A stretch of 16,370 bases of DNA, taken from NCBI GenBank assembly GCA_937893415.1, contig CALBWZ010000446.1, positions 1 to 16,370 of the forward strand, read 5' to 3'. A program made the translations under genes and the position numbers. The stretch is from an uncultured Comamonadaceae bacterium (lineage in GTDB: Bacteria > Pseudomonadota > Gammaproteobacteria > Burkholderiales > Burkholderiaceae_C). The notes below the pieces were generated by a model. The model saw only the letters and a program-made list of their open reading frames with translations, made no database searches and was not told the origin of the DNA. This document shows, in pieces, positions 1,501-16,370 of this stretch. The first letter of the stretch is position 1. Every line of letters begins with the position of its first letter.

Positions 1501-2576
1501 GTGACCAATTCTTCGTTGATGTAGTAGCAGGTGTTTTCATTGAGCACGTTGAGACCAATCAAGGTGCCTACTTGCGCTGGTATGTCTGATTTGTTTTGGC
1601 GTGTCTTCAACACCGCACCTTCGACCGCACATGTAATGAGGTAGTAAGTGCCCACGTCTTGCACGCGTGTGACGGTTGCTTGCAACTCATTACTCTGACC
1701 TGATGGGGTGGTTTGTAGGTGTTCTGGACGAATGCCAACAGTTACTGGGCCAGTCGCCAGCGTTTGATTGCTTGGTATTTGCAGCAGTTGCCCTGCCATG
1801 TTGATACTGCGTTCGGTGGTGACATCTGCACTGATAAAGTTCATACCAGGGGAGCCAATAAAGTGGCCAACAAATGTATGGGCTGGACGCTCGAAAAGAT
1901 CTTGTGGTGATCCAACTTGAACAGCTCGTCCTTGCGACATGACCACAACTTTGTTGGCAAATGTCAGTGCCTCCACTTGGTCGTGTGTCACGTATATCAG
2001 CGTGAGTTTTAGCTCGTTGTGGATTTGCTTGAGTTTGCGCCGCAGCTGCCACTTTAAGTGTGGGTCAATCACTGTGAGTGGCTCATCAAACAGTATCGCG
2101 CTCACGTCTGGCCTGACCAATCCTCTGCCCAGCGAAATTTTCTGTTTGACATCTGCGCTTAAGCCTGACGCACGTTGTTGCATGATGGGACCCAGTTCCA
2201 GCATCTCTGCAATGTCATGAATGCGTTTTTGAATGTATTGGGCATCCACCTTGCGGTTGCGCAGCGGAAAAGCCAGGTTGTCAGCCACTGTCATGGTGTC
2301 GTAAATGACGGGGAACTGGAACACTTGCGCAATGTTGCGCTCTTGGGGGGTTTGATGGGATACATCTTTTCCGTCAAATAGCACAGTCCCCTCTGAAGGG
2401 GCCAACAACCCAGACATGATATTGAGCATGGTGCTTTTACCGCAACCCGATGGCCCGAGCAAAGCGTAAGCGCCACCGTCCTCAAACCGCATATCCATGT
2501 GGTGGAGCGCATAGTCTGCCGGCCCAGTTGGGTTGGCTTTGTATGAGTGCGCCAGTTGTAAATCTATTTGTGCCAT
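1497..2576 (-). CDS. glpT: Glycerol ABC transporter ATP-binding protein GlpT
   Basis: Nucleotide-binding subunit of the importer, 359 residues, cytoplasmic face; this is the ABC-ATPase GlpT, not the E. coli glycerol-3-phosphate antiporter of the same name. Walker A is GPSGCGKST at 41-49, Q-loop glutamine at 87, Walker B ILFDEP with E165, and a switch histidine H198 in YVTHDQ. The signature motif is degenerate: LSADV at 139-143 instead of LSGGQ. Residues after about 235 form the MalK-like C-terminal beta-rich regulatory domain. A GKDV tetrapeptide at 69-72 aligns with the site of the stop codon in glpS. It starts 12 bases after the glpS stop without an obvious ribosome binding site and ends in a 4-base overlap with glpP, consistent with coupled translation in one operon. 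Confidence 0.92.
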   Translation of the reverse strand: MAQIDLQLAHSYKANPTGPADYALHHMDMRFEDGGAYALLGPSGCGKSTMLNIMSGLLAPSEGTVLFDGKDVSHQTPQERNIAQVFQFPVIYDTMTVADNLAFPLRNRKVDAQYIQKRIHDIAEMLELGPIMQQRASGLSADVKQKISLGRGLVRPDVSAILFDEPLTVIDPHLKWQLRRKLKQIHNELKLTLIYVTHDQVEALTFANKVVVMSQGRAVQVGSPQDLFERPAHTFVGHFIGSPGMNFISADVTTERSINMAGQLLQIPSNQTLATGPVTVGIRPEHLQTTPSGQSNELQATVTRVQDVGTYYLITCAVEGAVLKTRQNKSDIPAQVGTLIGLNVLNENTCYYINEELVT

Positions 2577-2588
2577 GTGGTTGTTTGT

Positions 2589-3665
2589 CTATGCGTTGTT
2601 GTGTGGGGCGTGGCTCAGGTTGCCAGCCTTGTCAAACACGAAGGTGCGGTTGGGCTGCAAGTAGACATTGGTTTGGCTACCCAGTTGCATGTTTTGCACG
2701 CCAGATACCTGCGCCACTAGCGGGCCTAATGCGGTACTCAAGTGAATGAATGTGTCTGAGCCAGAGATTTCAGACAGCTCAACGCGCGCTGCTACCGCCA
2801 CACCATCAGTGCCTTGGTCTAAGGTCACGGCATTAGCACGCAAGCCGACGCTGACGGGGCCTGATGCCTTGTTGTATTGTGCAATTCGGATGGTGATTGC
2901 TGAGCCTAAATCCAAAACACCATCTGTGCTTGTTGCGCTTAAGACATTCATGGGTGGGTCGCTAAAGGCGGTGGCAACCTGAACATTCATTGGACGCTGA
3001 AACACCTCATTGGTAGGACCGTATTGCAACAGCTTGCCCTCGTACAACACAGCGGTATGACCGCCCAGCAGCAATGCCTCACCGGGTTCAGTTGTGGCGT
3101 ACACGATGGTTGAGTTGCCCACATCAAATACGGCGGTGAGTTCCTCGCGTAATTCCTCTCGCAGTTTGTAATCCAAGTTGACCAACGGCTCGTCTAGCAA
3201 TGTAAGGGGAGCGGCTTTTATAAGCGCTCTTGCCAAAGCCACGCGTTGCTGCTGACCGCCAGACAATTCGGCTGGTAAGCGCTGCAAGAACTGGCTGATG
3301 TGCAAGCGATCAGCAATATCATTGACACGTTGCGTGATGCTGGCAGGTGTGTCACGCCCAGCCAGCTTGAGTGGTGAGGCGATGTTGTCGAACACCGACA
3401 TAGACGGGTAGTTGATGAACTGTTGGTACACCATGGCTATATTGCGTTCACGAACAGAGCGACCGGTCACATCTTATCCGTCAAACAGCAAGCTGCCTTT
3501 GCTGGGTTTGTCTAGACCTGCCATCACGCGCATCAAAGAGGTTTTGCCAGCTTGTGTGGCTCCCAGCAGCACGGTTAGGCTGTTTGGTTTGAGCACCATA
3601 TCCAGCGGGTAGATGTGTGTGTGGCCATCAACGATGGTGCTGATCTGTTGTAGCTCTAGGCTCAT
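2589..3665 (-). pseudogene. glpS: Glycerol ABC transporter ATP-binding protein GlpS, interrupted by an in-frame TAA
   Basis: Second ATPase of the importer and first gene of the leftward operon. ATG at 3665 opens a 63-codon frame with a Walker A-like GATQAGKTS at 35-43, closed by TAA at 3476-3474. The same frame continues without shift from the next codon: GTG at 3470 begins a 293-residue stretch with QQFINYP, signature LSGGQ at its residues 69-73, Walker B LLDEP (D93, E94) and a C-terminal beta domain. Read through the stop, the protein would be 358 residues, normal for the family. The usual switch histidine is replaced (ATTEP), which I recall as a family trait of GlpS. The stop separates Walker A from signature and Walker B. 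A GTG restart (GGA 6 bases upstream) would give a product without Walker A. Either a nonsense mutation or a base-call error explains it. Confidence 0.82.
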
Positions 3666-3681
3666 GCTGACTCACTTCTGT

Positions 3682-3691
3682 GCACCGGTGC
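3682..3691. repeat. 10-base perfect palindrome in the glpS leader
   Basis: GCACCGGTGC is its own reverse complement and ends 17 bases upstream of the glpS start. It could be a dimer-binding site or a small RNA hairpin in the glpS leader; the sequence alone does not decide. Confidence 0.35.
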
Positions 3692-3699
3692 GCTGTATA

Positions 3700-3833
3700 T
3701 TCGTTTGCTCATGAGCGATATGTTCTTTTGTGTTCGTAAACCATCTATTTTTTTCGTTTGGTGCATGTTAATGGGTTTTATTTCTTCGGTTTATAGGTGT
3801 TTACCCTTTTATATGTTCCTTTCTGTTCGGTTA
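3700..3833 (+). repeat. Five phased TTCG-type direct repeats, candidate GlpR operators
   Basis: Same-orientation octamers occur at 3700-3707 (TTCGTTTG), 3733-3740 (TTCGTAAA), 3753-3760 (TTCGTTTG), 3785-3792 (TTCGGTTT) and 3826-3833 (TTCGGTTA). Start-to-start distances are 33, 20, 32 and 41 bases, each close to a whole number of helical turns, which would place all copies on about one face of the DNA. DeoR-family repressors commonly bind TTCG-containing repeats. The assignment to GlpR is inference. Confidence 0.5.
3707..3716. repeat. 10-base perfect palindrome in the glpS-glpR control region
   Basis: GCTCATGAGC is its own reverse complement and begins on the last base of the first TTCG repeat. 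Its centre lies 25 bases from the centre of the palindrome at 3682-3691. A protein-binding site is possible but unproven. Confidence 0.35.
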
Positions 3834-3844
3834 TCGTCCTCTTC

Positions 3845-4645
3845 ATGCATGACACACACGTTTTCAACCTTCATACAGCTTTCACACCCAATGTGCGCCA
3901 GCAAGCCATTGTTGAGGAGGTCAAACGCCATGGAGCGGTCACCATCGAGTCCTTGTCGTCACGCTTTGACGTGACGCTACAAACGGTGAGACGTGATGTT
4001 CAGCGTTTGGCTGAATTTGGTTTTTTGGCGCGGTTTCATGGCGGTGTGTGTATGCCGGTGTCGACTACTGAAAACGTCAACTACATGCGGCGCCAAGCGA
4101 TGCAGGCCAATGGCAAGCAGCGTATTGCTCAAGCTGTTGCCGCACGTATTCCCAATGGGTGTTCATTGATTTTGAATATTGGCACCACGACAGAAGCCAT
4201 TGCGCAGGAACTGCTTCAGCACAAGGGCTTGCGTGTCATTACCAACAATTTAAATGTGGCTGCAACTCTCAGCGCGAACGAAGACTGCGAGGTCATTGTT
4301 GCAGGTGGTGTTGTTCGTGCGTTAGACCGCGGTATCACTGGCGAGGCCACGGTAGACTTTATCCGTCAGTTCAAGGTGGACATCGGTCTAATTGGTATCA
4401 GCGGCATTGAAGATGACGGCACCTTGCGCGACTTTGACTTCAGAGAAGTCAAGGTGGCCAAAGCCATCATTGCCAACTCACGTCAAGTGTGGCTGTGTGC
4501 CGACAGCACCAAGTTTTCTCGTCCCGCGATGGTCGAGCTGGGCCGTATTGACGAGTTGGATGTGGTGTTTACAGACATGACGCCGCCGCCACTGTTCTCT
4601 GACCTCATGGACAACGCCGGCGTTGAATGCGTGGTTGCCGCTTGA
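3845..4645 (+). CDS. glpR: DeoR-family glycerol-3-phosphate regulon repressor GlpR
   Basis: Predicted transcriptional repressor of the glycerol genes, 266 residues from ATG at 3845. The N-terminal winged helix-turn-helix spans about 18-75, with [20 protein letters not shown] leading into RDVQRL and the DeoR hallmark FHGGV. The C-terminal DeoRC sugar-phosphate sensor includes [33 protein letters not shown] and the GlpR-like [12 protein letters not shown] and [15 protein letters not shown]. The frame extends upstream to an ATG at 3797, but that adds a non-family hydrophobic 16-residue leader and would swallow a putative operator repeat, so I prefer 3845; neither start has a clear ribosome binding site. 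It is followed 58 bases later by glpK on the same strand. The expected inducer is glycerol 3-phosphate, by family. Confidence 0.92.
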
Positions 4646-4691
4646 AGCTGCGCTGTGCAGCCAAAAGCACCGTAACAAGCCTTACATTTTT

Positions 4692-4695
4692 GGAG
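4692..4695 (+). promoter_or_regulatory. Ribosome binding site of glpK
   Basis: GGAG lies 8 bases before the ATG at 4704 and fixes the glpK start. The open frame extends 27 codons further upstream into the end of glpR, but those codons match nothing in glycerol kinases. Confidence 0.75.
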
Positions 4696-4703
4696 TTTTA
4701 TAC

Positions 4704-6191
4704 ATGTCATATTTGATTGCCTTAGACCAAGGAACCACCAGTTCAAGGGCCATTCTGTTTAAAGACAACGGTGACATTGCCGCCAGTGCCCAGCAAGAGT
4801 TTGAGCAAATTTTCCCTAATCCAGGCTGGGTTGAGCACGACCCGTTTGCCATTTGGAATACCCAGCTTGCCGTGCTGGTCAAGGTGTTGGGTACAAGTGA
4901 CATCAACCCCAGTGACATTGCCGGCGTTGGTATTACCAACCAACGCGAAACCACGCTGGTGTGGCACAGGCGCACAGGCCAACCCATCTACAACGCCATC
5001 GTGTGGCAAGACAGACGCACCACATCTATTTGTGATGGCTTGCGCGAAAAAGGATTGCTGGACACAGTACGCAGCAAAACAGGTCTGCTGTTAGACCCGT
5101 ATTTTTCAGGCACCAAAATTCGCTGGATACTCGACCGCGTCGACGGCGCGCAGGCTTTGGCCGACCAAGGCGACTTGGTATTTGGCACAGTGGATACATG
5201 GCTTATTTGGCAATTAACAAGTGGCAAGCGCCACGTTACAGATGTGAGCAATGCGTCGCGCACCATGTTGTTCAACATCCATACAGGACAATGGGACGAC
5301 AGCTTGTTGGCCGAGCTCAATATCCCCCGCAGCATGCTGCCAGAGGTGTTGGCATCAAGTGCCGAATTTGGCTTTACAGACGCCAACATCGTTGGTCATC
5401 GCTGGCCTATTGGTGGTGTGGCTGGTGATCAGCAGTCGGCTGTATTTGGTCAAACTTGTTTTGAGCCAGGGCAGGCTAAAAATACGTACGGTACTGGCTG
5501 CTTCATGCTCATGCATACCGGCGATCAAGGTTTGGCCAGCGCCAACGGCTTGATCACTACGCGCTTGGCGCAATGGGGCGCTACGCCCTCGTATGCATTG
5601 GAAGGCAGCGTGTTTATGGCTGGTGCTGTTGTGCAGTGGCTGCGAGACGGTTTGGGTGCCATTGATGCCAGCGCTGACGTACAAGCCTTAGCCTCCAGCG
5701 TGCCCGATAGCGGCGGCGTCATCATGGTCCCGGCCTTTACGGGTTTGGGCGCACCTTATTGGTTGCCTGATGCACAGGGGAGCATTACAGGACTGAGCCG
5801 TGGCACGACCATGGCACACATTGCCAGAGCTGCTTTAGAGAGCATTGCCCTGCAAAGCACCGCATTGTTGCAAGCCATGAGCAAAGATGCGTTGTGCCAT
5901 GGTGGGCAAGCCGTTACGGAACTGCGTGTTGACGGCGGCGCCTGTGTTAATGATTTGCTGATGCAAATGCAAGCTGACCTGGCCGGTGTATCTGTGGTGC
6001 GTCCTCAAGTTGTAGAAACCACGGCTCTAGGCGCGGCGTATCTTGCAGGGCTGCATGTTGGGATATACCAAGACTTGGACCAGCTGAAGTCCCAGTGGCG
6101 TGTGCAGCGCGTGTTTGAGCCGCAGTGGTCAACAGACCAGGCTCAAGCAAAAATGGCCCAGTGGGAGCGAGCAGTGGCGGCTTTAACCTAA
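4704..6191 (+). CDS. glpK: Glycerol kinase GlpK
   Basis: ATP-dependent phosphorylation of glycerol to glycerol 3-phosphate in the cytoplasm, trapping imported glycerol. The protein has 495 residues, close to the E. coli enzyme (about 502). The FGGY-kinase N-domain starts with [12 protein letters not shown] at 6-17; the GVAGDQQ segment carries the expected catalytic aspartate D242; [40 protein letters not shown] and [10 protein letters not shown] are conserved kinase blocks. The loop that in E. coli binds the inhibitor fructose 1,6-bisphosphate (GGKGGTR, from memory) reads NIVGHR at 228-233 here, so that feedback may be absent. It is the second gene after glpR, 58 bases downstream, with a small inverted repeat (GCTGC/GCAGC, 4647-4661) in the gap. 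No convincing terminator is visible in the 83 bases after the stop. Confidence 0.97.
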
Positions 6192-6274
6192 CTTGGCTGC
6201 AGTAGGACAAGCGCGTATCAAGCCACTTCAGCCCAGCAAGCAACCAAGCTTGCACGCTATTTACAATAGCAGTT

Positions 6275-7396
6275 ATGCAAGCTTTAACTGATTTATACGC
6301 CTACCTCCTGCAGACCTCTAGCGACCCCAAGATTTGGTTGAGCCAAGTCTTTGTGGTGGTGTTGTTCATTGTGTTGTGTAATTTTGTTTTGATGCGTTTC
6401 ATAGAGGCCTCTGAGAAGGTGTTTGCCAAAACCAAGTCCTTGTGGGACGACGCGCTGCTAGACGCCGCGCGCATCCCGGTGCGTTTGTTCGTGTGGACGA
6501 TTGGGTTGACAGTAGCTGCGAAGGTGTTGGACAACGCCACCCAAAGCTCCCTGCTCGAGTTGTGGCCAGAAGTGCGCAGCATGTCCTACATTGTGATCGT
6601 CTCAATGTTTTTCACGCGTTTTATCCGCTTTGCAGAAACCAATTTGGTAGACGAGCAGCGCCGTGCCGCGCCTATGGACAAAACCACAGCCACTGCCATT
6701 GGCAAGCTGCTGCGTTTGAGCGTGGTGATTACAGCGTTTTTAGTGGCTTTGCAAACGTTGGGCTATTCAATTTCAGGCGTATTGGCCTTTGGTGGCGTAG
6801 GCGGTGTCGCGGTAGGCTTTGCCGCAAAAGATTTATTGGCAAACTTTTTTGGCGGCCTCATGTTGTACCTTGACAAGCCATTTTCTGTGGGCGATTGGAT
6901 ACGTTCACCTGATCGTGACATTGAAGGCACCGTAGAGGATATAGGCTGGCGCCTCACGCGCATTCGCACCTTTGACAAAAGGCCCTTGTACATCCCTAAC
7001 TCTATGTTTGCCTCCATCATTGTGGAGAACCCATCGCGCATGGCGCACAGACGTATTTATGAAAACATAGGCATTCGCTATGAAGACGCACACGTCTTGC
7101 ATGCTGTGGTGAACGATGTGCGTGCGATGCTGAAAAGCCACCCTGATATAGCCCAACAGCAAACGCAAATTGTGCATTTCAACGCTTATGCAGCATCGCA
7201 TTTAGAGTTCATGGTGTATGTGTTCACGACCACAACGGATTGGTTGCAATTTCACGCCATCAAGGAAGACGTGCTGACGCGGATCATGGCGATTGTGGAC
7301 AAGCACGGCGCTCAGTTCGCTTACCCCACCCAAACGCTGCATATCGCCAACGAGGTGGGCTTGGCGGAGCTGCAACACGCGCAACCTGCAGCCTAG
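6275..7396 (+). CDS. ynaI: MscS-family mechanosensitive ion channel, YnaI type
   Basis: Inner-membrane channel that opens under membrane tension to release solutes during osmotic downshock. The protein has 373 residues with membrane helices near 21-41, 68-85, 101-117 and 143-165, then the pore helix at about 166-199, whose glycine/alanine-rich GGVGGVAVGFAAKDLLANFF is followed by LDKPFSVGDWI, the MscS hallmark. The following beta domain (GTVEDIGWRLTRIRTFD, PLYIPNSMF, VENPSRM) closely resembles E. coli YnaI as I remember it. It begins 83 bases after glpK; the ATG at 6275 lacks a strong ribosome binding site. It converges with the oxidoreductase gene ending at 7425. Whether it is co-transcribed with glpK is open, though glycerol is an osmotically active solute. 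Confidence 0.93.
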   Translation: MQALTDLYAYLLQTSSDPKIWLSQVFVVVLFIVLCNFVLMRFIEASEKVFAKTKSLWDDALLDAARIPVRLFVWTIGLTVAAKVLDNATQSSLLELWPEVRSMSYIVIVSMFFTRFIRFAETNLVDEQRRAAPMDKTTATAIGKLLRLSVVITAFLVALQTLGYSISGVLAFGGVGGVAVGFAAKDLLANFFGGLMLYLDKPFSVGDWIRSPDRDIEGTVEDIGWRLTRIRTFDKRPLYIPNSMFASIIVENPSRMAHRRIYENIGIRYEDAHVLHAVVNDVRAMLKSHPDIAQQQTQIVHFNAYAASHLEFMVYVFTTTTDWLQFHAIKEDVLTRIMAIVDKHGAQFAYPTQTLHIANEVGLAELQHAQPAA

Positions 7397-7402
7397 GCTG
7401 CA
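7387..7402. repeat. 16-base perfect palindrome spanning the ynaI stop codon
   Basis: TGCAGCCTAGGCTGCA is its own reverse complement, with the TAG stop at its centre, between convergent genes. As RNA it could fold into a 6-base-pair stem with a 4-base loop. There is no T-run on either side, so an ordinary intrinsic terminator is not well supported. Confidence 0.5.
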
Positions 7403-7424
7403 TACCAATGCGCCAATTGTCTGT

Positions 7425-8597
7425 TCATGACGTACCGACGTTGGGTGCTGGTTTAGGCACTTCTTTTTGCGGTACGCGTTGCAGCTGCTTGGCAATAAAA
7501 CCTTTGTCGATTGCGTTCTTCCACCACCAAAATAGGCGTGAGCAAGCGGCCCAGCGGCCCCAAGTCGCAAGGGCACTTCCGTTGCTTAAATTCAGCAAGT
7601 TCAATGTGCGCTTTGGAGGTTTAAATGCCACCAGCGAACGTCTGTTGGCACTGGCCACCAGGTTGCGCCGTAAGGGCGGGCCCGCCCTTTCGGCGTATAC
7701 GCCGCTTCTTGGATGCGGGTAAGGCGTGCTGGCACTGGCATCACCGACGGCAAAGACGTTGGGGTGGGAGTGTGATTGGCCGTACTCGTTCACGCGAATG
7801 TAGCCGTAGTCGTTCAGTGACAAGCCAGACGGCGTCAATACGGTGGGCGCATGGCCACCTGTTGCAAGAATCGCCAAGTCGCATTTCAAACGCAGGCCGC
7901 CGTGCAAACTGAGCGCATCGCTGGTCAGCCCGACACAATGTTGCTCAATCACCTGAACCCCTGCACGCTTAAGGACTTCTCTGGTCAGCCGTTTGGCCAT
8001 GGGCGAGTAGTTGTGCAACAGGCCCCGCGTGCCAGCTATCAGTGTGAGTCCAGCTTTGGTTTGACTCAGCGACAGTGCCTTTGCCACTGCCAAAATAATT
8101 TCCACACCTGATGCACCAGCGCCCACGACGACCACACTTTGAGGCTTTTGGCGAAGACGTGCCAGCACTGCCGGCCATTGGGTTGCAAAGTCATCAATAG
8201 GATGAATACACAGGCCATGTTCAGTTGCGCCTGGGATGCGCCTATCGAGCTCAAGCTTGTTCACGGCCCTGCCGATGTCTATCGATAAAGTATCAAAAGA
8301 AATCTGTTTTCCGGTGTCTAGTGTGATGACTTGGCTTGCAGCGCTGATGTGTTGTGCGCTGGCTTGTATCCAATTGACTGCGTTATTTTTGAGCAAGCGT
8401 GCCACGTGCAACTCACACTGAGCTCGTTGGTACTTGCCCGCTATAAGACCTGGCAACATCCCACTGTAAATGTGCTCAGCCCGTGGCGTAACTACTGTGA
8501 GTTGTGCGTTCGGGGCGGCCGATTGCTGCCAATGTTTGATGATGTAGACGTGTGCATGACCGGCACCCAGAAGAACTATTTGTTTTGTGGCGTTCAA
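7425..8597 (-). CDS. FAD-dependent pyridine nucleotide oxidoreductase, SelD-associated type
   Basis: A two-dinucleotide-binding-domain flavoprotein of 390 residues, soluble or membrane-peripheral. The FAD Rossmann motif GAGHAH is at 11-16, YSGMLPG at 44-50, the NAD(P)H motif GAGASG at 159-164, and the second FAD motif AVGDAS at 283-288, followed by HPRSGVYAERAGPPL. No CxxxxC redox disulfide is present, so it is not a disulfide reductase; the fold resembles type II NADH dehydrogenases. The HAH variant and the R-G-V-Y..GPPL block match the family that is fused to, or encoded next to, selenophosphate synthetase SelD. No selD lies in this window. The start is a TTG at 8597 with CAGG 5 bases upstream; no in-frame ATG fits. 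It is downstream of the DUF3047 gene, separated by 113 AT-rich bases. Substrate unknown. Confidence 0.85.
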   Translation of the reverse strand: MNATKQIVLLGAGHAHVYIIKHWQQSAAPNAQLTVVTPRAEHIYSGMLPGLIAGKYQRAQCELHVARLLKNNAVNWIQASAQHISAASQVITLDTGKQISFDTLSIDIGRAVNKLELDRRIPGATEHGLCIHPIDDFATQWPAVLARLRQKPQSVVVVGAGASGVEIILAVAKALSLSQTKAGLTLIAGTRGLLHNYSPMAKRLTREVLKRAGVQVIEQHCVGLTSDALSLHGGLRLKCDLAILATGGHAPTVLTPSGLSLNDYGYIRVNEYGQSHSHPNVFAVGDASASTPYPHPRSGVYAERAGPPLRRNLVASANRRSLVAFKPPKRTLNLLNLSNGSALATWGRWAACSRLFWWWKNAIDKGFIAKQLQRVPQKEVPKPAPNVGTS

Positions 8598-8710
8598 AAT
8601 GACCTGCTTAAATGGAGGGCGAAAATTTAATTTTTAATTATATATTTGAAACTATTTTGCACGTTTTACATAGTGAGGACTTTTGGACTAACAAAGACGG
8701 TTGCGTTCTT
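8598..8710 (-). promoter_or_regulatory. AT-rich leader with a possible -10 box for the oxidoreductase gene
   Basis: This 113-base gap is the most AT-rich part of the window. On the minus strand a TATAAT hexamer occupies 8642-8637, about 40 bases before the TTG start. No good -35 match is found at the usual spacing, so the promoter is only a candidate. No terminator hairpin with a T-run is visible after the DUF3047 gene. Confidence 0.4.
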
Positions 8711-9463
8711 TTATTTCGCCGGTGTTTGCCAGCGTAAATTGTTGACCCAACCCAGCGCTTGTTCTTGTGTGTTGTCGGTATCTGCGCCAACAGCTATAGC
8801 GCTGACTGGTGGGACCACTTGGGCCTCGTCACCAAAGAGTTTTAAAAAATCATCCGACAAATTGCGGCGTTGTGTAGTCCACTCATTCAGCACGCTGGTA
8901 TTGGTCTGCAGCACCATGTAGCGCACCCGCTGTGTATATGGATTTGCACCCGTCGTACCGATGGGGTATCGGTTGTCCCAGATATAGCAAATGGTGGCTG
9001 CGGGTAGGTCAAGCGCGCTGGTGCTGCGGGCGATGCGCAGCAGCAAACGCTCACCCCAAGGCACGCTACCATCTTTGTGGGCAAAACTGACACACACCTT
9101 GAGTGCAGCATCGTCGCCAGATTTCGCTTGAAGGTTGGCTGTAGACAGGGCTGTGTCTAAGCGCCATTGCCAACTGATCACCCCCGCAGGCCATGGCCCC
9201 TTTTGTAGCAAGTGGCCATAGCTCGCATTGCTGTGTATGCGAACGGCCGGCGCAGTTGTGTTTGGCGCGTTGGCAACGCTGATAACGGGCGCGGCGACGC
9301 CCTTGTCTGTTGGCAGGCCAACACGCTCCCACTGGGTGTTTATTTGACCTGTTGCATTGAGCAGCGGTGCGGGTACTTGCGCGGTTACGGCTATCGGCGA
9401 CGACGCATGGGCATATGCCACACCCGCCGTAAGAAGCGCTGTCAAAACAGTGGTGGGGTTCAT
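8711..9463 (-). CDS. Exported DUF3047 protein
   Basis: Protein of 250 residues with a probable Sec signal peptide at 1-20 (short hydrophobic core, cleavage near AYAHA), so likely periplasmic. It matches the DUF3047 pattern: WERVGLP at 45-51, SYGHLLQ at 81-87, ISWQWRLD at 96-103, KSGDDAALKVCVSF at 114-127, PAATICYIWDN at 154-164, NPYTQRVR at 174-181 and GADTDNT at 226-232. The repeated W/D pattern and beta-rich makeup suggest a jelly-roll-like or carbohydrate-binding-like fold, but I know no established function for the family. It starts 13 bases after the stop of the phosphatidyltransferase gene, so it belongs to the ynj-like operon. A role as a periplasmic partner of the transporter or of a modified lipid is inference. 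Confidence 0.85.
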   Translation of the reverse strand: MNPTTVLTALLTAGVAYAHASSPIAVTAQVPAPLLNATGQINTQWERVGLPTDKGVAAPVISVANAPNTTAPAVRIHSNASYGHLLQKGPWPAGVISWQWRLDTALSTANLQAKSGDDAALKVCVSFAHKDGSVPWGERLLLRIARSTSALDLPAATICYIWDNRYPIGTTGANPYTQRVRYMVLQTNTSVLNEWTTQRRNLSDDFLKLFGDEAQVVPPVSAIAVGADTDNTQEQALGWVNNLRWQTPAK

Positions 9464-9476
9464 ATTGGCTGTTGGT

Positions 9477-10139
9477 TTATAAGTCGCGTAGACCCGAACG
9501 AATACGGGTCAGACTGGTGACGGTACACAGCGCTGAAAACACAAAGGCGAGGGTTGGAAAATACGATGGCCACAGGCACATTGCTACAAAAAAAACCAGC
9601 GTTTCTGTGGCTTCAGTCAGGCCGCCTAAAAAGTAAAACGACTTGTCGGCTCGGGTGACGGTAGCCGTTGGCGCTGTGGGGTTTGGTGCGTGTTTAGGCT
9701 GTAGATTAGATGCGTGGGATGTGTGTGCATTTTGCTTTTCACGCATAACAGCATAGGCTAGGAAACTGGTGCCAGTGCTTATAAATGCGGCCAGTAGACA
9801 CGCAGCTGCCAAGGCGTTTCGCGCGGGGTCAGCCCACGCAAACGCCAGCGGAATAGCCGCATAAAACCAAAAATCTAAACTTATGTCCAGAAAGCCACCC
9901 GCATCACTGGGTTGGCCAAGCCTGGCCACAGCCCCGTCTAGGCCATCGCATAGGCGCGAGAGCAACAGCACGCACAAGCCAAGCACGTACATCTGGTTGA
10001 CAATGGCCACGGCGCTGGCCATGCCCAAGCCCCAGCCCCACCAAGTCAGCGTGTTGGCACATACGCCAAGGCCGTGTAGTGCGTCAGCTAAGCTGCTGAT
10101 TAGTGGGCGAATGGCCTTTTGTGTGTAGTTGTCTAGCAT
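9477..10139 (-). CDS. ynjF: CDP-alcohol phosphatidyltransferase, YnjF-like
   Basis: Inner-membrane enzyme of 220 residues that should transfer a phosphatidyl or similar group from a CDP-alcohol to an acceptor hydroxyl. The family motif is intact: D65, D68-G69, A72-R73, G81, D85 and D89 (CDGLDGAVAR then GGFLDISLD); these aspartates bind metal and CDP in characterised members. Helices lie at about 31-50, 51-64, 80-100, 106-131 and 172-204. A hydrophilic insert at about 133-164, rich in His, Asn, Pro and Thr, separates the last helices. The SDAGGFLDISLDF block resembles E. coli YnjF. The ATG overlaps the ynjD stop by 7 bases, suggesting coupled synthesis with the ABC ATPase. Substrates are unknown for YnjF. 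Confidence 0.88.
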   Translation of the reverse strand: MLDNYTQKAIRPLISSLADALHGLGVCANTLTWWGWGLGMASAVAIVNQMYVLGLCVLLLSRLCDGLDGAVARLGQPSDAGGFLDISLDFWFYAAIPLAFAWADPARNALAAACLLAAFISTGTSFLAYAVMREKQNAHTSHASNLQPKHAPNPTAPTATVTRADKSFYFLGGLTEATETLVFFVAMCLWPSYFPTLAFVFSALCTVTSLTRIRSGLRDL

Positions 10140-10795
10140 GTGAACGTGCCCGGTGGCTCAGCAGCAAGCAAGCGGGTCAGTGTGCCACTGCTTTCAACAT
10201 CTTGTACATCGTGTGTCACCACCAAGGTGGGTACGCCGCTGGCCTTTAATGTGCTGAAGACCCACGTGCGCAATCGCTGGCGCAAGTCGGCGTCTAATGT
10301 TGCAAATGGCTCATCTAGCAACAGTGCTTTCGGTTGAGCCAACAGTGCGCGCATCAGTGCCACGCGGGTCCGCTCGCCACCTGACAGCTGGTGAGGCCAG
10401 CTGTGAGCCTTGTGACTCATCTCAATACCAGCCAAAGCATTCTGTGCAGCCTCAGTGCGTTGGGCTTTGCTGAGGGCGTGACGTGGCACGCCAAATAGCA
10501 AGTTGTCTAAAACGTTGAGTTGCGGAAACAACAAGTCGTCTTGAAACATCATGCCAATGCGCCTGAGATGCGCGGGCGTGTGGTCCAGTGCCGTTGCGTC
10601 CAGTTTGATGTGCCCTTGGTAGGTCATAGGCGCGTGCAGTTGACCAGCAATGGCCAATAACAAACTGCTTTTGCCGCTGCCGCTTGGCCCCATCAGCGTG
10701 TGCACACTGCCCGCCTCTACGCTTAAGCGTATGTCGCGCAGCAGCGGGGTCTGGCCAATGAGACCCAAGGTGTCGATGTGGATGTCTAAACGCAT
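10133..10795 (-). CDS. ynjD: ABC transporter ATP-binding protein, YnjD-like
   Basis: ATPase subunit of an importer, 220 residues from ATG at 10795; a TTG at 10801 would add two residues and sits directly after the ynjC stop. All nucleotide-binding motifs are canonical: Walker A GPSGSGKSS at 36-44, Q-loop Q85 in MMFQDD, signature LSGGERTRVAL at 137-147, Walker B LLLDEPF with E162, and switch H195 in VVTHD. RALLAQPKALLLDEPF strongly resembles E. coli YnjD as I recall it. It has no C-terminal regulatory domain, as expected for thiamine/iron/polyamine-type small ATPases. It lies 6 bases after ynjC and overlaps ynjF by 7 bases. It would energise the fused permease YnjC. Substrate unknown. Confidence 0.92.
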   Translation of the reverse strand: MRLDIHIDTLGLIGQTPLLRDIRLSVEAGSVHTLMGPSGSGKSSLLLAIAGQLHAPMTYQGHIKLDATALDHTPAHLRRIGMMFQDDLLFPQLNVLDNLLFGVPRHALSKAQRTEAAQNALAGIEMSHKAHSWPHQLSGGERTRVALMRALLAQPKALLLDEPFATLDADLRQRLRTWVFSTLKASGVPTLVVTHDVQDVESSGTLTRLLAAEPPGTFTC

Positions 10796-10801
10796 GCGCA
10801 A

Positions 10802-12499
10802 TTAATAGGTATAAGGTGTGCGCTTAGCCCACAGGTGGGCCAAGCCAAAAGCCACCACTGGCAGCACTATTTGTAGCAGCCCGAAAGCAGATGCTGTGTC
10901 ACGTTGTCCGCCGCTGGCCAGCGTGACGGCTTCTGTCGTGATGGTCGTCACACGTCCAGCCCCCAGCATTTGTGTGGGTAGGTACTGGGCCACACTGACT
11001 GCAAAACCAACTGCCCATGCATTGAGTATGGCGGTCTTTAGCATTGGCCATTTCACGCCAAAGAGATAGCGACATGTTGGCACGCCAAGGCTGGCGCTGA
11101 CCCATGACAAACGCTGGTTAAAGCTGAGGTAGGCTGGGCTCAACATCAGGACGGTGTAAGGCAGCACAGCCAATGTGTGGGCCGCGCCAACGCCGACCCA
11201 ACTGGCATCTATCCCCACCACGGTGGCAGCTTGGTGCAGTCCTGACAACCACAACACAGGCGGCAAAACCAACAGGCCATACAGCGCAGGTCTTAAGGCC
11301 AGCTCCAGACGAGGCGGTGCGGCTTCTAGCCACGCCAGCGTCCACAGCATCGCGGCAATGCTACTCATGGATGCCAAGCTACAAGTCGTGCGCAAGGCCT
11401 CTGAACTGATGAGCGCTTGCGCCCATGCGCCCAGGTGCCACTGCTGTGGCCACACATTGGGAAAGGGCCAGTACAAGGTCAAGCTGGCTGTTGCCAAAGC
11501 CAACACAATCGCCACATACACGCCGCTAAAGCATCTCCAAAAAGCGACTGCAGACTTGTGCTGGTGTGTGGTGTGCCCCGCACGGGTTGGGACATTATTT
11601 GAAAAGTTGTGGTGGCCGCGGGTGTTCAAGCGCTGCCAACCCTGCCAGCGCAAGGCCAGCCACGCCAGGAATGCGCACGCAGCACCTGCAACACTCAGCA
11701 GCCAAGCTGCAGCTATGCCGGTGCTGGCCATCCGTGGGTCGGGGTCTTGCAACCACTGCCATGCCAGCGTCGCCAGCGTTGGCGGCTGGTTGGGGCCAAT
11801 GACCAAGGCCATGTCTACTTGGCTGATGCCATAGGCAAACATGGCCGTTAATGGCCAGCCAAGTCTGGGCAACAGCATGGGCCACATGATGCGCTGCCAA
11901 GTTTGACGCGGGCTGTAGCCAAGGCATGTCGCGGTGGTCATGGCGCGCCTCAGCGTCTGTTGCATATCGGGGCGTTGCAGCTGCGTGGCCAGGCTCCACA
12001 GTAAGAAAGGCAGCTCTTTTCCGATGAGTACAGCGCACAAGCCCAAGCCCAAGGCATCATTGACCAACGGCCAATCTGGTGGCCACTGCCAGCCGCTTAA
12101 ACCCGGTGACACCACACGTACCAGCCAACCACTGGGTGCAATCAGCCACACAATACCAATGGCAAAAGCCACGTGTGGCATGGCCAACATAGCCGGTAGC
12201 CAGCGTGTAAAACGCTGCCATGACCGGTTGGTTTGTCCTTTTGCAACCCACAAATAAAACACCAACCACCTCGCTAGACCAACACAAGCGGCTACTGAGA
12301 GCAATGATGTGATGAGACTCAGTAACAGCGCAGTCCACGTGCTGGGGTGTCGTAGCAAGGCGTCCCATGCGTGATGAGAAGCACCTTGCAGGGCAGCGTG
12401 TCCAAGCGCTGCGACTAAGGGGATACCCAAGGCCAGCATCAAGGCACTGCGCATGAAAAACAAGCCCGCGCGGCTGAAAGTGTAGGAGGATACCGTCAC
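10802..12499 (-). CDS. ynjC: ABC transporter double permease, YnjC-like
   Basis: Integral membrane channel of 565 residues in which two permease domains are fused, as in ThiP or FbpB-type proteins. Two EAA loops are visible, at about 187-216 (TATCLGYSPRQTW then WPMLLPRLG) and 467-494 (SASLGVPTCRYLF then WPMLKTAIL), with about twelve hydrophobic segments. A basic, hydrophilic linker at about 293-320 joins the halves. The C-terminal block AQYLPTQMLGAGR, ITTEAVTLASGG closely follows E. coli YnjC as I remember it; this copy is somewhat longer (E. coli about 511). The start is a GTG at 12499 without a ribosome binding site; an in-frame ATG 15 codons downstream is an alternative. ynjD follows after 6 bases. 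Ninety-one featureless bases separate it from ynjB. Confidence 0.92.
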   Translation of the reverse strand: MTVSSYTFSRAGLFFMRSALMLALGIPLVAALGHAALQGASHHAWDALLRHPSTWTALLLSLITSLLSVAACVGLARWLVFYLWVAKGQTNRSWQRFTRWLPAMLAMPHVAFAIGIVWLIAPSGWLVRVVSPGLSGWQWPPDWPLVNDALGLGLCAVLIGKELPFLLWSLATQLQRPDMQQTLRRAMTTATCLGYSPRQTWQRIMWPMLLPRLGWPLTAMFAYGISQVDMALVIGPNQPPTLATLAWQWLQDPDPRMASTGIAAAWLLSVAGAACAFLAWLALRWQGWQRLNTRGHHNFSNNVPTRAGHTTHQHKSAVAFWRCFSGVYVAIVLALATASLTLYWPFPNVWPQQWHLGAWAQALISSEALRTTCSLASMSSIAAMLWTLAWLEAAPPRLELALRPALYGLLVLPPVLWLSGLHQAATVVGIDASWVGVGAAHTLAVLPYTVLMLSPAYLSFNQRLSWVSASLGVPTCRYLFGVKWPMLKTAILNAWAVGFAVSVAQYLPTQMLGAGRVTTITTEAVTLASGGQRDTASAFGLLQIVLPVVAFGLAHLWAKRTPYTY

Positions 12500-12590
12500 G
12501 GGAGGTTTGTGGTGTGCAACAGCGTTGGGTTGGCGTTTAAGTTGATATGTAAGCCGGTGTTCTATGTGGCGTCTGAGTCAAGGTTTACGG

Positions 12591-13832
12591 CTATTGGCCG
12601 TAGCGCTGAATCCATGCCGTCTCAAGTGCGCCCACCCACGACACATGCGGTTCGCCCAATGTGGGTGCTGTGTTGACCAGTGCACCGCCTGTGTTGCCGC
12701 TGGTAGCTGCTGCAAAAGCGGCTTGTCCTGCTGCATCTAGCGACTGTAGGTTCAGCACGGTGGGGTCACCCCACACACGGATATCAGATTTACGAGCCTG
12801 AGCCAACGGCGATAACAAGAAGTTAGCGACCACTTGTGCACCTTGGGGCGCATTGGCATTTGTTGGAATGGCTACAAAATGGGTGTTGCCAATGGTGCCG
12901 CCGGTATGTTGGTAACTGTAGGTCGACGCGGGTAGTTTGCCCGCGGCAACCTCCGCACTGGCCTCAACCGGGTTGAAGGTCAAGCCCAGTAGCAGCGACC
13001 TGTCGGATACGCCTTGGGCAATGTGAGCCACGCTGCTGGGAAATTGTTGACCGCTGCGCCACAGGTTTGGGTGCAGGGCATCAAGGTAGGTCCACAGTGG
13101 CGCAGTGGCTTGTTTGAAAGCAGCGTCTGTCACCGGTTGATCAAGCAATGTGCGTCGTGGGTTGAGCTCAAGCAGCAACTGCTTTAAAAATGTGGTCCCA
13201 TGAAACTCTGGCGGGCGCGGATAAGTGATGCGCCCTGGCTGTTTGGCGGCGAGTTGAGCCAACTCTTGTGCGTTGCGCGGTGGCGTGGGGAGTAGCTGTT
13301 TGTCAGCATAAAAGGTGAGCTGAGCCATGCCCCAAGGCGACTCTAAGCCGTCTGTGGTTTCACCAAAATCTTTCAGTGTGGTGGGCTTGCCTGCAGTGTC
13401 TACGTGCACAAAGTTGGGCAATGCTTGCGCAAAGGGGCCGAACAGCAGGCCTTCTCGTTTGAGGGTGGCAAAATTTTCGCCATTGACCCACATGAGGTCT
13501 GCTGACCCATTGTTCCGCTTGCCAGCGGCCACTTCGCCGCGCACTCTGGCGATGGTCTCAGCAATGTCTGCCACCTTGACGTGAACCAACTTCACGCCGT
13601 ATTGCGTTTGCACTTGCTCGCCAACCCACCGGAGGTAGGCGTTGATACGCTCGCCACCACCCCATGCGTTGAGATAAACAGTCTGACCCTTGGCGTCTTT
13701 TTCAATGTCTGACCAAGACTGTGCGCCTGTTGCGGCGATGGCGATGTTGACTGTCATTAGGGAAGTCAGCGACAACCATGAGGCGACGGCTAGTCCCAGG
13801 GTGCTGCGGCGTGTGAGGAAATAACGTGACAT
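12591..13832 (-). CDS. ynjB: ABC transporter periplasmic substrate-binding protein, YnjB-like
   Basis: Periplasmic receptor of 413 residues from ATG at 13832. The signal peptide at about 1-34 has a twin arginine (R8-R9, LTRRSTLG) before a long hydrophobic core ending AIAATGA, so Tat export is possible as well as Sec. Mature-region blocks include TVYLNAWGGGERINAYLRWV, GSADLMWVNGENFATLK, EGLLFGPF, PWGMAQLTFY and GLTFNPVEASAEVAAGK, which match the YnjB branch of extracellular solute-binding proteins (E. coli about 388). The frame continues up to 13955, but those 41 codons look like non-coding leader placed before a good signal peptide. It is the first gene of the leftward ynj-like operon and diverges from the TVP38-reductase gene. 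Ligand unknown. Confidence 0.9.
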   Translation of the reverse strand: MSRYFLTRRSTLGLAVASWLSLTSLMTVNIAIAATGAQSWSDIEKDAKGQTVYLNAWGGGERINAYLRWVGEQVQTQYGVKLVHVKVADIAETIARVRGEVAAGKRNNGSADLMWVNGENFATLKREGLLFGPFAQALPNFVHVDTAGKPTTLKDFGETTDGLESPWGMAQLTFYADKQLLPTPPRNAQELAQLAAKQPGRITYPRPPEFHGTTFLKQLLLELNPRRTLLDQPVTDAAFKQATAPLWTYLDALHPNLWRSGQQFPSSVAHIAQGVSDRSLLLGLTFNPVEASAEVAAGKLPASTYSYQHTGGTIGNTHFVAIPTNANAPQGAQVVANFLLSPLAQARKSDIRVWGDPTVLNLQSLDAAGQAAFAAATSGNTGGALVNTAPTLGEPHVSWVGALETAWIQRYGQ

Positions 13833-14046
13833 GGTCTGGAGGGTCCTGGGTATGAAAGACAGTGGTGTTGGTGAGTAAATTGAGTCGGCGGTGTGATTGC
13901 GTGTGTCAGTGCATACGTTGGGCCTAGTCCCTAGGTTACAGTGAAGTGAATGCACCGTGTTGAGGCCTGTAACTTGCAGTAGATCATTATCGAATAGGGG
14001 TGTGAACGTTTTGATGCCAGCTTTAATTTAACCTAGGTTTTGCCGT
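13833..14046. promoter_or_regulatory. Divergent control region between ynjB and the TVP38-reductase gene
   Basis: This 214-base gap separates divergent genes and should hold both promoters. It carries a CCTAG-tcc-CTAGG inverted repeat at 13923-13935 and the palindrome AACCTAGGTT at 14030-14039; they share the 9-mer CCTAGGTTA (13930-13938) as inverted copies (TAACCTAGG, 14029-14037). I could not choose convincing -35/-10 elements. Shared control of the two units by one regulator is inference. Confidence 0.5.
14030..14039. repeat. AACCTAGGTT palindrome over the ribosome binding site of the TVP38-reductase gene
   Basis: The 10-base perfect palindrome ends 7 bases before the ATG at 14047. The only Shine-Dalgarno-like triplet (AGG, 14035-14037, 9 bases before the start) is inside it. 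A repressor bound here would block early transcription, and RNA pairing with the copy at 13930 could mask the site; both are inference. Confidence 0.45.
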
Positions 14047-16278
14047 ATGAATTCTCCCACTGCACACAGCAGCCGCCCACTGTCGTTGCTTATAAAGCTA
14101 CTCATCGTTGCTGTAGTGGTTGTTGCGCTGTGGGTGTATGCCCGCAGCGATGCCAGCCAATGGCTAAGCCTTGCCTCGCTGAAGGCGCACGCAGCAGGTT
14201 TGGCTTCTTGGCGAGTTGATCAGCCTTGGGCCGCTGCGGCAACTTTCTTTGTCGTCTATGTCCTGGTGACCGCTGTGTCGCTGCCCGGCGCTGTGTGGCT
14301 TACCCTGGCTGGGGGTGCGTTGTTTGGCCTCTGGCAAGGTTTGTTGTTGGTGTCTTTCGCGTCAACCACGGGGGCCACACTGGCGATGCTGGCTGCGCGG
14401 TTTGTGTTAGGTGAGACGGTGCAGCGCCGCTTCGGCGAGCGCTTGCGGTCAGTCAACGATGGGATTGCCAAAGACGGTGCGTTTTACTTGTTCAGCTTGC
14501 GCTTGGTGCCGGTGTTGCCATTTTTCCTCATCAATTTACTGATGGGACTTACCCAGTTGCCAGCACGTACTTTTTATTGGGCCAGTCAGGTGGGCATGCT
14601 GCCAGGTACAGTCGTGTATGTGCTGGCGGGTACGCAATTGGTTCAAATTGACAGCCTCAGCGGAATTGCTTCTCCGGGTTTATTGGGCTCGTTCGTGATG
14701 CTGGCAATGTTCCCTTGGGTGGCTAAATGGTTTGTTGCCCAATGGCAAGCCAAGCGTGTGTACAGCGGCTACAGCAGGCCTAAGCAGTTTGACCGCAACA
14801 TGGTGGTTATTGGCGGTGGTGCAGCCGGTTTGGTAAGTGCTTATATCGCCGCGGCAGTCAAAGCCAAAGTCACCTTGGTTGAAACGCACAAAATGGGCGG
14901 TGATTGTTTGAATTATGGCTGTGTGCCCAGCAAGGCACTTATTAAAAGTGCCAAGGTTGCCCACCAAATGCGCCACGCGCACACCTATGGCCTCAACCAT
15001 GTGGCGGTCGATCAAGCACAAGTGGCGGCTTCTTTTCCTGACGTGATCAAGCGTGTACGCCAAGTGGTCACCGCCATTGAACCCCACGACAGCATAGAGC
15101 GTTACACAGCCTTGGGCGTTGACGTGGTGCAAGGTTATGCCCGGATCGTGGACCCTTGGACAGTTGAGATCACGGGCAGCGATGGTGGGGTTGAAACCCT
15201 CACCACCCGCGCCATCATCATTGCCACTGGCGCCCGTCCGTTTGTGCCGCCGCTGCCAGGCATTGATGACGTGGGTGTGCTGACCAGCGACACCATGTGG
15301 GATGCGCTGGCAGCGCTTCCCTCAGCGCCGCAGCGTGTGGTGGTGTTGGGTGGCGGCCCTATTGGCTGTGAGTTGTCTCACGCTTTGGCGCGTTTAGGCA
15401 GTGGTGTGACGCAAGTTGAAATGGGCCCACGCATATTGCCTCGTGAAGATAGAGACGCGGCTGATGTGGTGGCAGCGGCTATGCAACGCGATGGTGTGAC
15501 CCTCCTTACAGGGCATGAAGCGGTACGTTGTGAGCCGGGTGAGCCAAGCGGGCCTGGTCATCAGGGTCGAGCACATGCGATTGTGGTGAACCACAACGGA
15601 GCGGAAAAACGCATTGAGTTTGACGTGCTCATTGCAGCGGTAGGGCGCAACGCTAGGTTGTCAGGTTTTGGCCTAGAAGCGTTGGGTATTGAGGTGGGGC
15701 GCGTGGTGCAAACCAACGGGTACTTGCAAACCAAATTCCCCAATATTTTGGCTGCAGGCGATGTGGCGGGTCCTTACCAGTTCACCCATACGGCGTCGCA
15801 TCAAGCATGGTTTGCCGCCGTTAATGCCTTGTTTGGCGACTTTAAATTATTTAAGGTGGACTACAGGGTGATACCGTGGGCCACCTTTACCGATCCCGAA
15901 GTGGCCCGGGTAGGTTTGAGTGAAACCGAGGCCGCAGCCCAAGGCATAGCGGTAGAGGTGACAAGGTTTGAGTTGCACGAACTAGACCGTGCCATCACCG
16001 ACTCTGCTACCACTGGATTCGTCAAAGTGCTGACCAAACCCGGTAAAGACACCATCTTGGGCGCCACCATCGTTGGCGCTGGAGGCGGCGACTTGCTGAC
16101 AGAGTTCGTGCTTGCTATGAAATACAGCTTGGGATTGAATAAAATTTTGGGCACCATTCACACCTATCCCACCATGGGTGAAGCCAACAAGTCCGCTGCG
16201 GGTGAATGGAAGCGTGCCCATGCGCCAGCGGCTGTGTTGCGATGGGTGCAAAAATTCCATACGTGGCGCAGGGGCTAA
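14047..16278 (+). CDS. Fusion of TVP38/VTT membrane domain and mercuric-reductase-like flavin disulfide reductase
   Basis: Membrane-anchored flavoenzyme of 743 residues. The N-terminal part (about 10-235) is a TVP38/TMEM64 (VTT, DedA-like) domain with helices near 14-31, 62-80, 83-119, 146-168 and 208-231; its conserved blocks are FSLRLVPVLPFFLINLLMG at 149-167 and MLPGTVVYVLAG at 184-195. A basic linker leads to a complete class I pyridine nucleotide-disulfide reductase: FAD motif GGGAAG at 256-261, redox pair C287/C292 in GGDCLNYGCVPSK, NAD motif GGGPIG at 435-440 with E458 suggesting NADH, AAGDVAG, and a dimerisation domain. The usual catalytic HPT histidine is replaced by tyrosine (Y707, with E712), as in MerA-like enzymes; the MerA C-terminal cysteine pair and N-terminal metal-binding domain are absent. 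Substrate unknown. Confidence 0.93.
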   Translation: MNSPTAHSSRPLSLLIKLLIVAVVVVALWVYARSDASQWLSLASLKAHAAGLASWRVDQPWAAAATFFVVYVLVTAVSLPGAVWLTLAGGALFGLWQGLLLVSFASTTGATLAMLAARFVLGETVQRRFGERLRSVNDGIAKDGAFYLFSLRLVPVLPFFLINLLMGLTQLPARTFYWASQVGMLPGTVVYVLAGTQLVQIDSLSGIASPGLLGSFVMLAMFPWVAKWFVAQWQAKRVYSGYSRPKQFDRNMVVIGGGAAGLVSAYIAAAVKAKVTLVETHKMGGDCLNYGCVPSKALIKSAKVAHQMRHAHTYGLNHVAVDQAQVAASFPDVIKRVRQVVTAIEPHDSIERYTALGVDVVQGYARIVDPWTVEITGSDGGVETLTTRAIIIATGARPFVPPLPGIDDVGVLTSDTMWDALAALPSAPQRVVVLGGGPIGCELSHALARLGSGVTQVEMGPRILPREDRDAADVVAAAMQRDGVTLLTGHEAVRCEPGEPSGPGHQGRAHAIVVNHNGAEKRIEFDVLIAAVGRNARLSGFGLEALGIEVGRVVQTNGYLQTKFPNILAAGDVAGPYQFTHTASHQAWFAAVNALFGDFKLFKVDYRVIPWATFTDPEVARVGLSETEAAAQGIAVEVTRFELHELDRAITDSATTGFVKVLTKPGKDTILGATIVGAGGGDLLTEFVLAMKYSLGLNKILGTIHTYPTMGEANKSAAGEWKRAHAPAAVLRWVQKFHTWRRG

Positions 16279-16279
16279 A

Positions 16280-16302
16280 CCCATGCGGCTTTGCTGCATG
16301 GG
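16280..16302. terminator. Hairpin after the TVP38-reductase gene, possible bidirectional terminator
   Basis: One base after the stop, CCCATGCGGC and GCTGCATGGG pair as a 10-pair stem (one G-T) around a TTT loop. No T-run follows on the + strand; on the minus strand only TTT follows. It sits between what look like convergent genes, which favours a terminator role. Confidence 0.5.
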
Positions 16303-16317
16303 CGGCTGTCGCCTCAG

Positions 16318-16370
16318 TTAAGCCAACATAGCCTGTGCAAACTCGTGTGCTTTGAAGTTTTGAAGGTCTA
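16318..16370 (-). CDS. Possible C-terminal end of a convergent gene
   Basis: On the minus strand one frame is open from the right edge to a TAA at 16320-16318 and reads DLQNFKAHEFAQAMLA. The composition looks protein-like and amphipathic, and of the three minus-strand frames one opens with an immediate stop. The fragment is far too short to identify. The hairpin at 16280-16302 lies just beyond its stop. Confidence 0.35.
   Translation of the reverse strand, partial: DLQNFKAHEFAQAMLA

Follow-up and report, generated by a model that had tools for sequence, protein, structure and literature searches.

Introduction

In Escherichia coli K-12, the genes for the ATP-binding cassette (ABC) transporter YnjBCD lie in the order ydjX-ydjY-ydjZ-ynjA-ynjB-ynjC-ynjD-ynjE; ynjF is located downstream, on the opposite strand, and selD lies 5.6 kb from ynjF. 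A passage of PMC9207381 calls YnjBCD an uncharacterized transport system, and no published substrate was found for it among the matches listed in the literature searched, in line with a first-pass annotation of the DNA studied here, which had held that none was established. This DNA, the window, is a stretch of 16,370 nucleotides from an uncultured Comamonadaceae bacterium (assembly GCA_937893415.1, contig CALBWZ010000446.1, positions 1 to 16,370) and is part of a draft genome (G000) of 2.4 Mb in 468 contigs. It carries a leftward run of ynjB, ynjC, ynjD, ynjF and a DUF3047 gene, diverging from a gene for a VTT (TVP38/DedA) domain fused to a flavin adenine dinucleotide (FAD)-dependent disulfide reductase (the VTT-FAD fusion; 14047..16278, forward strand). 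Comparison of these genes across genomes suggests, with a probability of roughly 55%, that they form a selenium supply module, combining import and reduction, that feeds selenophosphate synthesis.

The E. coli stretch resembles the window in that relatives of YnjBCD and YnjF occur with VTT proteins adjoining, and the K-12 gene order agrees with the first-pass annotation, which had placed ydjX and ydjZ beside the ynj genes. It differs in that its VTT proteins are not fused to a reductase, in that a ferredoxin-like YdjY, an AhpD-like YnjA and a sulfurtransferase YnjE are present, and in that no DUF3047 or TIGR03169-type gene is annotated there.

Several other described systems share parts with the window. 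MerA and dihydrolipoyl dehydrogenase have the CxxxxC flavin reductase core in common with the VTT-FAD fusion, which differs from them in scoring below both cut-offs, in carrying Tyr for His, in lacking a C-terminal Cys pair and in its N-terminal membrane domain. TIGR03169 is a family found N-terminal to SelD; the window encodes a protein that scores above its cut-off, yet stands alone. In the matching text of PMC10127716, fusions to a pyridine nucleotide-disulfide oxidoreductase are named as the type seen most often among the DedA proteins of COG0398, and these combine the same two domain families as the window protein; that text draws no tie to YnjBCD or SelD. The VTT-reductase fusion itself is already known, and its selenium linkage is the new result. 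In the sen cluster, SenC makes selenophosphate, SenB is a selenosugar synthase and SenA forms selenoneine (PMC9814287). This cluster shares islands with the module in several genomes and occurs in the host genome, but the window genes are not sen genes. The same islands contain another ABC importer, recognized by TIGR04553, which is of the PhnCDE type rather than YnjBCD.

Results

Linkage of the VTT-FAD fusion to selenium genes

Two sets of genomes were compared, namely 80 ynjB loci from named genomes and, separately, 250 Burkholderiaceae genomes, with matches counted at the E-value limits of the searches. Linkage to SelD (TIGR00476) was surveyed in the Burkholderiaceae and one E. coli genome with a threshold of 25 kb. 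The fusion was found in 74 of the 250 genomes, and 72 of these carry SelD. In 23 of the 72, drawn from 18 genera, the distance between SelD and the fusion is at most 25 kb, and in 11 of them at most 8.2 kb; these 23 belong to the 32 cases in which both genes share a contig. As a control, mnmH, which was matched in 69 of the 74 fusion genomes, was located relative to the fusion and fell within 25 kb of it in 0/69, a count that comprises 66 measured genomes and three (G208, G243, G356) whose partial MnmH matches lie on contigs other than the fusion's; MnmH and the fusion share a contig in 12 genomes and are near one another in none. The difference between the same-contig pairs (23/32 for SelD, 0/12 for MnmH; p 1e-5) is measured against one control gene only, which is little.

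Such linkage could be the inherited neighbourhood of a single Burkholderiaceae branch with no functional meaning, and all 23 linked genomes do come from one family, the sole family surveyed for linkage. We consider this quite unlikely, given the number of genera, distances between SelD and the fusion that range from 125 bases to 22 kb with varied gene orders and strands, the absence of any comparable proximity to mnmH, and the neighbouring ynjF and selD of E. coli. The latter represents a second lineage with the same neighbours, which, as one genome, is weak evidence. At the shortest of these distances (L121, 4486-6922, in G321, a genome of the window's genus), two reading frames make up the fusion gene, which is 125 bases away from a SelD fusion; SenB and DUF3047 were not found in searches of that genome.

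The form of SelD also tracks the fusion. A best SelD hit of the TIGR03169-fused type was found in 31/74 fusion genomes and 3/176 others, the type being read from score classes, with its make-up confirmed by family scans of three proteins and a truncated match in G356 excluded. When second copies are included, which were counted in fusion genomes alone and not among the other 176, fused-type SelD is present in 34 of the 72 SelD-bearing fusion genomes, in G238 and G403 as fragments only. Across 10 fusion-bearing genomes, 13 TIGR03169 matches exceeded the cut-off, of which 6 were SelD fusions and 7 stand-alone proteins, and every one of these 7 is encoded within 6 kb of the VTT-FAD gene.

SenB was detected in 48/74 genomes with the fusion vs 46/176 without; of the 48 genomes carrying both, 16 have the two no more than 25 kb apart. 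As no SenB was found in 7 of the 23 genomes where SelD is close, some of these 7 being incomplete drafts, the tie is to SelD and not to selenoneine alone. In one island (L140 in genome G311), SenA, SenB, EgtD and TIGR04553 matches, all above curated cut-offs, lie between the fusion and SelD. The TIGR04553 protein is the binding protein of a PhnCDE-type ABC transporter of a "putative selenate" family, and it occurs in 44 fusion genomes; in 17 cases it shares a contig with the fusion, 12 of them at a distance of no more than 25 kb. A tRNA scan of 27 island loci reported no selenocysteine tRNA.

Co-occurrence of ynjB, the fusion and DUF3047

Among the 250 Burkholderiaceae genomes, ynjB was found in 38 and DUF3047 in 144. 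The fusion is present in 35/38 genomes with ynjB vs 39/212 without it (odds ratio 52, p 1e-18), and this tie persists in SenB-positive genomes (24/24 vs 24/70) and in SenB-negative genomes (11/14 vs 15/142). DUF3047 was detected in 65/74 fusion genomes vs 79/176 others. Where ynjB and the fusion occur together, they share a contig in 20/35 genomes, 16 of these within 10 kb, and lie on different contigs in 15/35. Across the order, ynjB is rare (2/200 genomes, the window's own among them).

In the fetched flanks of the 80 ynjB loci, a complete or partial VTT-FAD gene was found in 21, including loci from Rhodoferax, Limnohabitans, Propionivibrio, Tolumonas and Oceanospirillaceae. In addition, one further locus (L018) has the reductase part of a fusion at its edge, and an Atlantibacter locus (L076) has an unfused VTT gene. 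The co-occurrence that the first-pass annotation had anticipated thus extends beyond this lineage, both in the family-wide counts and in linked pairs from one Propionivibrio, two Tolumonas and one Oceanospirillaceae metagenome-assembled genomes. Because the neighbourhood recurs in many genomes, its arrangement is not due to chance.

Of 20 fusion loci taken from genomes that gave no ynjB hit, 15 contain a stand-alone TIGR03169 gene, 13 contain DUF3047 (12 at a slightly higher threshold), 5 contain ynjF and 1 contains a SelD fusion. A DUF547 gene is found in 8 of the 20, located between the fusion and DUF3047 in L137, L153 and L154, for example. In one such locus (L094 in genome G216), ynjC and ynjD run off the contig end, and the missing ynjB is therefore probably an assembly effect.

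The fusion protein and its reductase core

The VTT domain spans residues 80-196 of the fusion protein (PF09335, 81.4 vs a cut-off of 33.9 bits), with the FAD/NAD disulfide reductase following it (PF07992 and PF02852, above cut-off). Cysteines 287 and 292 of the CxxxxC motif and Glu 458 are invariant in 61/61 non-identical fusion sequences. Glu at this position favours NADH. Disulfide reductases usually have His at the catalytic position (the HPT..E motif), and MerA has Tyr there together with a vicinal C-terminal Cys pair. In all 61 fusion sequences the catalytic His is replaced by Tyr, and the last 40 residues contain no CC pair. The protein is therefore a flavin reductase of the CxxxxC kind that falls outside the typical lipoamide and glutathione reductases and is not a MerA. 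In family scans, the reductase matched best to NF004991 (a subfamily of FAD-containing oxidoreductases), with lipoamide dehydrogenase and MerA next; none of the three scores reached its cut-off. Membership in MerA was rejected on the TIGR02053 score (334 vs a cut-off of 454 bits) and the absent Cys pair, and membership in dihydrolipoyl dehydrogenase or glutathione reductase on the Tyr replacement.

These features bear on whether the locus serves metal or oxidant defence, in which case the VTT-FAD protein, as a membrane-located relative of the MerA/RclA-type reductases, would act on copper, mercury or reactive chlorine or thiocyanate species, and its neighbours would provide periplasmic protection. 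The order of family matches and the MerA-like Tyr are consistent with such a role, as are bufferin-type genes near the module, which were found by direct comparison in 8/40 loci, with related clusters in 10 loci of a clustering that left out L001, L082, L083 and L122; these neighbours would suit metal stress too. The lack of a C-terminal Cys pair and the low MerA score oppose it, and it leaves the link to selD and TIGR03169 unexplained, so that we regard metal or oxidant defence as unlikely. The bufferin/Hvf-type genes seen beside the module encode DUF2063, DUF2282 and HvfX-like DoxX proteins (L086, L097, L104, L115, L117-L119 and, in part, L089).

A DedA protein was reportedly linked to selenite resistance in a 2005 study. 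Among the literature matches listed, including the matching text of PMC5322559, PMC9312934 and PMC13188914, no published tie of YnjBCD or the VTT-FAD fusion to selenium was found.

The leftward operon

Open reading frames and family matches (Pfam, NCBIfam) bear out the first-pass description of a leftward ynjB-ynjC-ynjD-ynjF-DUF3047 operon diverging from the fusion, at the coordinates given here. The run is tight, with ynjF and ynjD overlapping by 7 bases and the remaining gaps measuring 0, 13 and 91 bases. All of its genes lie on the reverse strand. The first, ynjB (12591..13955), encodes the periplasmic substrate-binding protein of an ABC importer, which scores 499.8 bits against NF008633 (cut-off 203), adjoins YnjC and YnjD and is 49% identical to E. 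coli YnjB; its closest named relative is from Betaproteobacteria bacterium MOLA814 (L002), at 92% identity. It is followed by ynjC (10802..12499), encoding a double-length ABC permease with 31% identity to E. coli YnjC over 555 aligned positions, no Pfam match and weak NCBIfam permease matches, and by ynjD (10133..10801), encoding an ABC ATPase (PF00005, 113 bits; 45% identity to E. coli YnjD).

The next gene, ynjF (9477..10139), encodes a member of the CDP-alcohol phosphatidyltransferase family (PF01066, 36.1 vs 22 bits) with 44% identity to E. coli YnjF. Comparison with the E. coli sequence placed ynjF in 55/80 ynjB loci, a set that does not include the window locus (L001). It was also found in 16/20 loci of a ynjB set (L104-L123), 19 of which show ynjB; within this set, G245 contributes a second piece as L107, and L122 duplicates L002. 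The first-pass annotation had inferred uptake of a compound that is reduced at the membrane or attached to a lipid. Its uptake with membrane redox is a fair reading of the locus, whereas attachment to lipid gains no support beyond the observation that ynjF travels with ynjBCD. That an imported and reduced compound is attached to lipid by YnjF would agree with these ynjF frequencies but not with the presence of ynjF in only 5 of the 20 fusion loci without a ynjB hit, and we judge it very unlikely.

The DUF3047 gene (8711..9463; PF11249, 154.6 bits vs a cut-off of 27) encodes a protein whose N-terminus resembles a signal peptide by eye. Its structure model is mostly beta-strand, with a mean predicted local distance difference test (pLDDT) score of 77.8. 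Fold matches were weak, with template modelling scores of about 0.3-0.6 to carbohydrate-binding and other beta folds, and were rejected as a basis for assigning a function; no relative was found among PDB sequences up to E 10. In one locus (L110, 14276-16943), genes for an ATP-grasp protein and a YHS-domain lipoprotein of a "(seleno)protein" family follow DUF3047. ATP-grasp genes were seen in 6/40 loci and YHS genes in 8/40, although SelA was found in 0/39 genomes.

Absent from the first-pass annotation was a sixth leftward gene, 113 bases past DUF3047 (7425..8597), which encodes a stand-alone TIGR03169 oxidoreductase. The protein scores narrowly above the curated cut-off (316 vs 310 bits), and its 390 amino acids contain no SelD-type domain, so it is not of the kind fused to SelD. 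It shares 30% identity with the N-terminal part of the SelD fusion encoded elsewhere in the host, and a relative comes after DUF3047 in L002 and L003 as well. This gene was the starting point of the selenium reading.

Control region and neighbouring genes

Translation of ynjB probably begins inside the open reading frame, at an ATG near 13832, which is favoured because a signal-peptide-like start occurs there. Judged from sequence, this start would leave a shared control region of about 210 bases (13833..14046) between ynjB and the fusion. Inspection of this region revealed two CCTAGG-centred sites (13930 and 14032), one of which sits in the perfect palindrome AACCTAGGTT. Both sites are retained in L002, and one was found in the stretch of L003 that was read. 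Co-regulation of the window and sen genes through these sites is unsupported, as neither CCTAGGTTA nor TAACCTAGG occurs in L156, the sen contig of the host, or in L157. No Rfam match above cut-off was found in the window, which leaves the idea of a riboswitch unsupported, and a promoter and terminator scan gave counts that were not above those of shuffles.

The remainder of the window holds an MscS-family mechanosensitive channel gene (6275-7396, forward strand), convergent with the TIGR03169 gene, and, at 3-6191, what is probably a glycerol uptake locus, with genes for an ABC transporter, for a DeoR regulator and for an FGGY-family kinase. An ATPase open reading frame in the latter (2589-3470) is without the first part of its ABC domain.

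Selenium genes of the host

Outside the window, contig C159 of the host genome (L156) encodes a SelD fusion, SenB, SenA and EgtD, all above cut-off, with SenA, SenB and SelD side by side, and MnmH is present elsewhere in the genome. A large open reading frame beside egtD (9804-11876) has a YcaO-type look by eye. SelA was not found in any of the 39 genomes tested, the host included, with E. coli positive as a control, which rejects selenocysteine as the end product in these genomes. With SenA, SenB, SelD and MnmH present and SelA not found, the expected uses of selenium in the host are therefore selenouridine and selenoneine rather than selenocysteine. The search for TIGR04553 gave no match in the host genome and a match in G412, a genome of the same genus. 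As the host seems to be without this predicted selenate importer, YnjBCD is one candidate importer by inference.

Discussion

Genome context points to selenium, which the first-pass annotation had named merely among several things to test. In our proposal, YnjBCD would import a selenium compound, and the VTT-FAD reductase, probably with NADH, would act on the inner side of the membrane to reduce a selenium intermediate, for instance one bound to a thiol. Completing this reduction or channelling it to selenide would fall to the TIGR03169 protein, and SelD/SenC would make selenophosphate for MnmH and, where present, for SenB and SenA. The VTT domain may serve as an anchor or in the movement of lipids or ions. 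That YnjBCD is a dedicated selenium-compound importer, that the VTT-FAD and TIGR03169 proteins form a membrane-tied, NADH-driven selenium reductase handing selenide to SelD/SenC, and that the E. coli ydjXYZ-ynjABCDEF genes are a variant of this system is put forward tentatively, as a combination that falls short of even odds.

The assignment of YnjBCD as an importer of selenium compounds is a candidate drawn from genome context, and the transporter could instead import an ordinary organic solute (polyamine, phosphonate or sugar-like), with only the fusion, TIGR03169 and DUF3047 serving selenium. An AlphaFold2 model of YnjB (mean pLDDT 87) fits binding-protein folds and resembles proteins for many ligands, including PotD, Stm0429, MctA, AfuA and binding proteins for sugars, which score alike; naming a ligand from the fold is thereby ruled out, and no sequence relative was found among PDB sequences (best E 0.62). 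A review table in PMC9397018 gives YnjB a polyamine label. Also consistent with an organic solute are the Granulosicoccaceae, in which ynjBCD occurs without the fusion in the fetched flanks, and the 15 of 20 loci that combine the fusion and stand-alone TIGR03169 in genomes without a ynjB hit. Against this stands the near-constant company of the fusion in ynjB genomes, which holds whether or not SenB is present. We find an organic solute doubtful on balance, while counting it as a serious competitor. In 14 Granulosicoccaceae loci (L050, L054, L055, L058, L059, L060, L068, L069, L071, L073, L075, L078, L079 and L081), two permease-like genes recur near ynjB and look by eye like part of an oligopeptide-type ABC system.

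Like the ambiguous YnjB fold, the Granulosicoccaceae loci and the bufferin-type neighbours, several further observations weigh against a selenium supply module. SelD is not within 25 kb of the fusion in 49 of the 72 genomes, 9 of which have both on one contig at 53 kb to 4.5 Mb. As SelD occurs in 228/250 genomes, its mere presence says little. In the host, the sen operon lies on a contig apart from the window genes, and in G412 sen and SelD are about 239 kb and about 237 kb away. SenB was not found in 14/38 ynjB genomes. The same islands already have a predicted selenium importer in the TIGR04553 system, with which ynjB shows no association (19/38 vs 94/212 genomes); the idea that YnjBCD replaces this importer was likewise dropped, as the anti-association is not significant. 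Finally, the tests all concern genome context, related genomes are not independent, and draft contigs limit the detection of linkage in both directions.

For a selenium supply module speak the close and varied placement of SelD, the fused SelD type and the stand-alone TIGR03169 genes beside the fusion. A gene set that often adjoins selenium-activating genes offers a testable account of how some bacteria may acquire selenium and ready it for use, and the module offers a candidate reductase for the step preceding selenophosphate.

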